Positions 60,932 to 61,641 of a DNA stretch of 64,000 nucleotides are shown piece after piece. A program made the translations under genes and the position numbers. The first letter of the stretch is position 1, and every line of letters starts with the position of its first letter. Source of the DNA: Bosea vaviloviae (GTDB lineage Bacteria; Pseudomonadota; Alphaproteobacteria; Rhizobiales; Beijerinckiaceae); the NCBI RefSeq assembly GCF_001741865.1, contig NZ_CP017147.1, positions 2,285,001 through 2,349,000 of the forward strand, given 5' to 3'. The notes below the pieces were generated by a model. The model was not told where the DNA came from. It did not search any database and was given only the letters and a program-made list of their open reading frames with translations.

Positions 60932-60974
60932 TGATGCGAGCCTTCCCCGCGCCCCTATCTGCTGTGAGCCTGCC

Positions 60975-61088
60975 ATGAGCGACATCATCGAAGTTTGGAC
61001 GGACGGGGCCTGCTCGGGCAATCCCGCGCCTGGCGCGCTTGGGGCTTGCCCCATTCGCGCAAAAGAAAATCGCCGGGACCTGCCATGA
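60975..61088 (+). CDS. Mini-ORF 1: truncated RNase HI N-terminus
   Basis: 37 codons. The first 17 residues, SDIIEVWTDGACSGNP after Met, copy RNase HI including the first catalytic Asp; then the frame goes GALGACPIRAKENRRDLP and stops. The stop overlaps the next ATG (ATGA). The tail aligns loosely with the GGWGAILSFKGTQKEL segment of the intact protein, so it is a decayed copy. Whether it is translated is unknown. Confidence 0.55.
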   Translation: MSDIIEVWTDGACSGNPAPGALGACPIRAKENRRDLP

Positions 61089-61198
61089 GCGACGTGGTCG
61101 AAGTTTGGACGGACGGAGCCTGCTCGGGCAATCCCGGGCCTGGCGCGCTTGGGGCTTGCCCCATTCGCGCAAAAGAAAATCGCCGGGACCTGCCATGA
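61085..61198 (+). CDS. Mini-ORF 2: truncated RNase HI N-terminus
   Basis: 37 codons, nearly identical to mini-ORF 1 but with SDVVEVWTDGACSGNPGPG as in the intact gene. It again ends in a TGA that overlaps the rnhA ATG. The tail from GALGACPIR on is identical in both mini-ORFs, so the pair arose by recent duplication of a 110-bp unit. Confidence 0.55.
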   Translation: MSDVVEVWTDGACSGNPGPGALGACPIRAKENRRDLP

Positions 61199-61641
61199 GC
61201 GACGTGGTCGAAGTTTGGACGGACGGAGCTTGCTCGGGCAATCCTGGGCCCGGCGGCTGGGGCGCGATCCTCTCTTTCAAGGGCACGCAGAAGGAGCTGT
61301 CGGGCGGCGAGGCCATGACCACCAACAACCGTATGGAGCTGATGGGCGCGATCTCCGCCCTGGAGACGCTGACGCGGCCCTGCATCGTGGCGCTGCACAC
61401 CGACAGCCAGTATCTGCGCCAGGGCATCACCGCCTGGATCCATGGCTGGAAGAAGAACGGCTGGAAGACCGCCGACAGGAAGCCGGTCAAGAACGAGGAG
61501 CTCTGGAAGCGCCTCGACGCTGCGCTCGGCCGCCACAAGATCGAGTGGAAATGGGTCAAGGGCCATGCCGGCAACGAGATGAACGAGCGCGCCGATGCGC
61601 TGGCGCGCACCGGCATGGCGCCGTTCAAGCCGGGGCGGTAG
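61195..61641 (+). CDS. rnhA: Ribonuclease HI
   Basis: 148 aa. The catalytic carboxylates are all present: EVWTDGACSGNPGPGGWGA (Asp), NRMELMGAISAL (Glu), LHTDSQYLRQGI (Asp) and HAGNEMNERADALA (His/Asp). It degrades RNA in RNA:DNA hybrids. The start is the third ATG of the tandem array; translation may depend on reading through the two upstream mini-ORFs by ATGA coupling. Confidence 0.95.
   Translation: MSDVVEVWTDGACSGNPGPGGWGAILSFKGTQKELSGGEAMTTNNRMELMGAISALETLTRPCIVALHTDSQYLRQGITAWIHGWKKNGWKTADRKPVKNEELWKRLDAALGRHKIEWKWVKGHAGNEMNERADALARTGMAPFKPGR

Follow-up and report, generated by a model that had tools for sequence, protein, structure and literature searches.

We conclude that the array in front of rnhA is probably a small palindromic, mobile-like element that sits at the thrB/rnhA junction, is tolerated there through a relay of overlapping open reading frames (ORFs), and is multiplied or lost by recombination. 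The two-copy array itself is real. The window, i.e., the whole stretch of 64,000 nucleotides that was analysed, carries an operon-like run of an ispH-like gene (Pfam LYTB), a thrB-like gene (APH), rnhA (RNase_H) and a DUF1330 gene; the thrB-like gene encodes homoserine kinase, judging by its position and our own reading. Genomes and loci are designated below by our own G and L labels. The features of the junction are as follows:

59966..60931, + strand: thrB-like gene (Pfam APH), whose stop TGA overlaps the next ATG
60928..60978, + strand: 16-aa mini-ORF, the first relay link, with an ATGA overlap at either end; the same ORF occurs in G052
60969..61078, + strand: tandem unit 1, the oldest by divergence from rnhA
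60975..61088, + strand: mini-ORF 1, 37 aa
61033..61060, + strand: 28-nt hairpin core of unit 1
61061..61070, + strand: A-rich variable tail of unit 1
61071..61080, + strand: inverted copy of the rnhA insertion point, pairing with 61246-61255 (9/10 here)
61079..61188, + strand: tandem unit 2
61085..61198, + strand: mini-ORF 2, 37 aa
61143..61170, + strand: 28-nt hairpin core of unit 2
61195..61641, + strand: rnhA, RNase HI, 148 aa, of which the first ~57-60 nt are the duplicated stretch

Both units measure 110 bp and are 95% identical, with the rnhA start forming a third, partial copy; the array has a Tandem Repeats Finder (TRF) score of 520, and no other array in the window exceeds 82. The original prediction of a 110-bp unit present twice ahead of rnhA, each copy encoding a 37-residue peptide whose stop codon TGA overlaps the following ATG, was thus borne out. 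It had put the duplicated part of rnhA at ~20 codons, where we find the duplication but a length of ~19, and the two ATGA overlaps that it described belong to a total of four, since the extra 16-aa ORF lengthens the chain to thrB, 16 aa, 37 aa, 37 aa and RNase HI. The peptide of mini-ORF 2 scores 21.3 bits against Pfam RNase_H, under the curated cut-off of 25.8, and that of mini-ORF 1 gives no match. The loose alignment of the peptide tails with RNase H, from which a diverged rnhA had been suggested as their source, is at chance level (equally good shuffles in 31% for the peptide and 87% for the DNA); the tail is instead a hairpin insert that is also seen beside other genes. No sigma-70-type promoter was found in 59900-61750, which is weak evidence in a host of this kind, and no clear Shine-Dalgarno motif was seen by eye before the internal ATGs. 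The four Rfam matches in 60850-61750 all lie far under the gathering scores and point to no known RNA family.

In the Bosea carriers, the unit is made of the host's own rnhA start (~19 codons) and an insert of ~50 bp, which runs from the 28-nt palindromic hairpin through an A-rich tail to an inverted rnhA copy at the insertion point. The insert is near-identical across species apart from the variable, mostly A-rich tail of ~10 nt, and the hairpin is conserved far better than the tail. In core orientation, the units that were read, at rnhA and at the other genes described below, have the gene interior to the right and one gene end intact. Over units at these genes, the inverted copy was 9-13 nt long with a shuffle p <= 0.004 in 11 of the 17 rows computed; p was 0.015-0.019 in two, and four were not significant. 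The four remaining rows of the full set of 21 involve a contig end or arrays of more than one unit. Bosea units measure 110 or 113 bp (both leaving 2 when divided by 3), with the exception of G003, where a 112-bp unit goes with an overlap of 8 nt in place of 4 nt. Each of the 13 complete mini-ORFs in the ten carriers is open and overlaps the next start, by 4 nt in 12 cases and by 8 nt in one. Covariation of the hairpin pairs is absent when Bosea alone is considered, and folding energies are only mildly better than those of shuffles (z -0.1 to -2.8). The originally suggested leader-peptide control would be conjectural: in the part of the peptide encoded by the hairpin, 5, 1 and 2 variable sites fall at codon positions 1, 2 and 3 (nine species), with no concentration at third positions, which argues against selection on a peptide sequence.

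An rnhA match was obtained in all 67 Bosea genomes searched, and full units in 10 of them, with one to three each: three in G025, two in G000, at least two in G061, and one in each of G002, G003, G020, G024, G035, G036 and G040. The comparison of unit number among relatives agrees with the suggestion of a copy-number-variable locus, with 0-3 upstream units across the 67 genomes. The contig of G005 ends inside a probable unit. At E <= 0.01, a covariance model returned 11 of the 67 genomes, with G012 as the eleventh, matched weakly at an unrelated place. The further partial matches in G046, which lie on other contigs, come from a second copy of rnhA lacking the hairpin. Models found no hairpin elsewhere than at rnhA in Bosea (G000 and G025; carriers among 397 genomes, E <= 0.01), and movement within the genus was therefore not seen. 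A loose pattern with 2 mismatches occurs at scattered places in at least 62 of the 67 Bosea genomes, and dispersal was judged from the models instead; as these place the hairpin at rnhA only, a dispersed repeat in Bosea was rejected.

In a 66-genome tree built on thrB+rnhA, the distribution of the 11 genomes labelled as carriers, with G005 among them, takes 10 changes, compared to 10.3 for shuffled labels, and a single carrier clade is rejected (p 1e-10). Vertical descent from a single origin with many losses is not favoured, carriers being mostly single tips among non-carrier sisters; G002 and G025 are sister carriers. Upstream copies differ from their own rnhA by 0-6 per 44 bases. In multi-unit arrays the gene-nearest copy is the most similar: 6, 3 and 0 differences in G025, 5 and 2 in G000, and 2 and 1 in G061, whose array is cut by contig ends. 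By a crude codon count, 14 copies hold 6 amino-acid-changing and 28 silent differences. All six amino-acid changes belong to G000 and G025, in their distal copies; the ten gene-nearest copies have none, with 18 silent differences. The pattern is consistent with copies that had still served as functional gene starts not long ago and that degrade after being displaced outward. Simple decay, one of the earlier suggestions, therefore describes the gene-distal copies, the sole ones with amino-acid changes, but not the remainder. Selection on the peptide was rejected as an explanation, since the silent-only gene-nearest copies equally fit recent gene starts and some distal copies gather amino-acid changes.

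The silent-only differences of G024 and G036 (6 and 5, respectively) are more numerous than expected soon after a duplication and suggest that diverged alleles have recombined. Placing G036 in a clade with G024 and G061, a group chosen after nearest neighbours were seen, is rejected for thrB (p 1e-4) and allowed for rnhA (p 0.42). These three genomes have a common insert tail, with one base different in G061. The conflict between the thrB and rnhA trees of G036 fits a transfer of rnhA.

The contig includes thrB in 65 genomes, of which nine are carriers and 56 lack the unit. An NTGA overlap at the thrB stop leads directly into rnhA in 50 of these 56, and the six others have unrelated stretches of 31-235 nt between the two genes. 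In these six and the nine carriers, an unbroken chain of ORFs linked by -4 or -8 overlaps runs from thrB to rnhA without exception (15/15); the permitted overlap classes were taken from a review, but were fixed after G003 had been seen. For the seven non-unit inserts (the six stretches above and the left part of the G020 insert), dinucleotide shuffles gave a joint chance of 1.4e-4, or 3.5e-3 when in-frame extensions were counted. Single inserts keep the chain by chance in 13-67% of cases, and the claim thus rests on their joint occurrence. At 56 of 68 further loci, mostly from other genera, the rnhA start overlaps a preceding ORF of 150 codons or more (55 by -4, one by -1). Most likely, selection preserves the coupling of rnhA to thrB, and the unit would be tolerated as able to carry that coupling. 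Other GC-rich inverted-repeat stretches were observed between thrB and rnhA at L008 (G032), L022 (G039) and L010 (G020), and their variety indicates that this junction collects several kinds of insertion.

Models of the insert were used to search for other sites, and these fall within the order Hyphomicrobiales. The unit-type architecture recurs in G261 and G272, from another genus of the family, where it stands at an ABC permease gene (PF00528), again with the gene's 3' end duplicated around the hairpin, and a weaker copy occurs at an ABC permease in G765, of another family, where the inverted piece is not significant. In a third family, 7 of 12 genomes of one genus have the unit at the 3' end of groEL (PF00118), and G516 has it twice in tandem. 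G141, from a further genus, has two units with a diverged core before rnhA; the second mini-ORF of this genome overlaps the rnhA start by ATGA and its first stops 15 nt before the next start. A similar hairpin gave ten matches in G102, another genus of the family, seven of which had been used to build the model. Two class I tRNA-synthetase genes of this genome contain it in frame, the leucyl editing domain being present in one of them, and a D5-primase-like gene (L327 centre) contains two units 39 bp apart, also in frame, which indicates that the hairpin can also multiply in tandem within a coding gene. By our reading, two further G102 hairpins lie in 23S rRNA, and the label IleS for a synthetase is likewise ours. 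No direct repeat of at least 22 nt brackets the tRNA-synthetase, D5-primase-like or 23S copies of G102. Such a repeat around the centre was present at 24 of 134 loci tested, by a test that is blind to multi-unit arrays and to loci off-centre from the match; these 24 are the rnhA, permease and groEL units and one 39-bp tandem repeat in G076. The latter (L204, C2:104631-104748), in another genus of the family, holds a similar hairpin. In G765, a similar hairpin was observed within a longer dispersed repeat with shared flanks (L206, L230, L249, L250 and L252).

At E <= 0.1, no hairpin was detected in the non-carrier Bosea G049 or in 9 of 10 other genomes of the family, and the tenth, G129, gave one weak match. 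Across 23 members of the hairpin family, 96% of pair cells are paired and changes on both sides were recorded in 7 of 11 pairs, compared to 0 of 500 shuffles, a result inflated by the gathering of members with structure-aware models.

These data bear on whether the array is a selected regulatory leader, in which hairpins and mini-ORFs would form an attenuator or rheostat for RNase HI with unit number as the dial. The far better conservation of the hairpin than of the tail, the preserved overlaps and the varying unit number are all consistent with it. However, 56 of 65 genomes manage without the unit, its hairpin part has no third-position pattern, the region matches no known RNA family, and copies of this hairpin are also located within coding genes and downstream of genes other than rnhA. 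We consider a regulatory leader improbable.

Duplicated gene ends are usual at integration sites, and the array could be the scar of a site-specific integrated element, with the repeated gene end as att core and the hairpin insert as element remnant. An insert of ~2.85 kb bounded by a duplicated gene end, at the rnhA 3' end of three sisters, speaks in the same direction. This stretch, which is not in the window genome, directly follows rnhA in the close relatives G006 (L297 2036-4884), G049 (L298) and G052 (L299). Its bounding duplicate of the rnhA 3' end is ~115 bp long and 85-89% identical, and its ORFs resemble, on our reading, a substrate-binding protein, an alpha/beta hydrolase and a MarR-type regulator. 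No integrase was read among them, however; in most carriers the copies follow the host's own gene, and the core is a palindrome common to unrelated target genes. The integrase and two att sites of an integrative element were not encountered, and the inserts are of ~50 bp. No phage, plasmid or transposase carrier of the unit was found, and the exact core is absent from viral contigs. Six plasmid records matched up to 45% of the query and three phage records 14%, the annotated ones being mostly rnhA itself. As no phage or plasmid record covers the unit, such carriage was rejected. An integration scar is therefore an unlikely origin for the array.

It is equally doubtful that the rnhA start was simply duplicated in tandem by replication slippage, with the insert as meaningless filler or decayed rnhA. 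The tandem geometry and the gathering of amino-acid changes in distal copies would follow from slippage, but the insert has no match to rnhA and is common to several species and other genes, a shared hairpin that already contradicts this account, and the relay is kept in 15 of 15 cases. Tandem repeats are commonly misassembled, but an assembly artefact, a risk raised with the original prediction, is hardly credible for a genome in 2 contigs whose unit recurs, with different tails, in nine other genomes and breaks the assemblies of G061 and G005 from within.

We therefore return to a small palindromic element at the thrB/rnhA junction. At its site, a stretch of the gene end (at rnhA, ~57 bp from the start codon) flanks the core on either side and a 9-13-nt inverted copy of the insertion point comes after the core, an arrangement that leaves one gene copy intact. 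Strand-switching synthesis, or pairing of the element tail with the target, could be the route; the duplicated gene end and the inverted copy suggest the former more than a cut-and-paste transposase. The hairpin itself may be mobile. It would be tolerated here because the unit length keeps open a mini-ORF whose stop overlaps the next start, by which a ribosome leaving thrB could be relayed to rnhA. Recombination between the direct repeats would then multiply or remove units, which may pass between Bosea lineages together with rnhA. The sequence shows the chain of overlaps and an intact rnhA; a terminating ribosome would presumably restart at each overlap and every unit would thus cost some output, with less RNase HI made as units accumulate; the hairpin inside each mini-ORF would be opened by the translating ribosome. 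More tentatively, the insertions may represent a new family of palindromic elements, very small in size and confined to the Hyphomicrobiales as far as seen here, that enter gene ends by a route not described before, duplicate ~35-85 bp of the target, add an inverted copy of the insertion point and persist between coupled genes because they bring their own ribosome relay. This broader proposal is possible, though we would not yet favour it.

Three known types of repeat resemble the Bosea unit in part. Mycobacterial interspersed repetitive units (MIRUs) occur as many copies dispersed in one genome, whereas the unit occupies one site per Bosea genome, is not dispersed and belongs to a different phylum. 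It also differs in that each unit incorporates the start of the gene itself together with a palindromic hairpin and an inverted target copy. MIRUs are described as apparently mobile, located at start codons, with an internal ORF coupled by -4 nt spacing and an insertion thought to do little harm (PMC12548453), and, for the senX3-regX3 spacer, as units of 77 and 53 bp (PMC4213456). The Bosea units are likewise short tandem units at an operon junction, with -4 coupling in 12 of 13 and -8 in one. By this published description the unit may work like a MIRU, as a likeness rather than as membership. Rickettsia palindromic elements (RPEs) are described as palindromic alphaproteobacterial elements of about 150 bp, in frame inside coding genes (PMC10969869). 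Here, G102 alone has in-frame palindromes of this kind, in genes of the class I tRNA-synthetase and D5 families, whereas rnhA stays whole. The 28-nt hairpin, the ~50-bp insert and the gene end duplicated at rnhA, permease and groEL set our element apart from RPEs by description. REPs are short GC-rich imperfect hairpins, of which the CGTC type predominates in alphaproteobacteria with no known transposase, according to PMC3733652. The Bosea core is also a short, GC-rich, imperfect hairpin, but a GTAG/CGTC tag lies within 8 nt in only 2 of 33 distinct flanks (31 have none), and the searches of Bosea genomes gave no dispersed copies. Spacings of -4, -1 and -8 are among those enriched in ordinary coupling, as PMC12548453 reports; the Bosea chain differs from ordinary NTGA coupling in running through up to three extra mini-ORFs. 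No published report of the array or of the hairpin family was found in the open-licence literature searched.

Duplicated gene starts of this kind are easily mistaken for errors or gene fragments in annotation. The mechanism of ribosome hand-over at start/stop overlaps is described as not firmly established in PMC12548453, and 0, 1, 2 or 3 units at one gene offer a natural series for measuring it. Collectively, our findings point to a tiny palindromic element that duplicates gene ends, with target genes that differ by genus.
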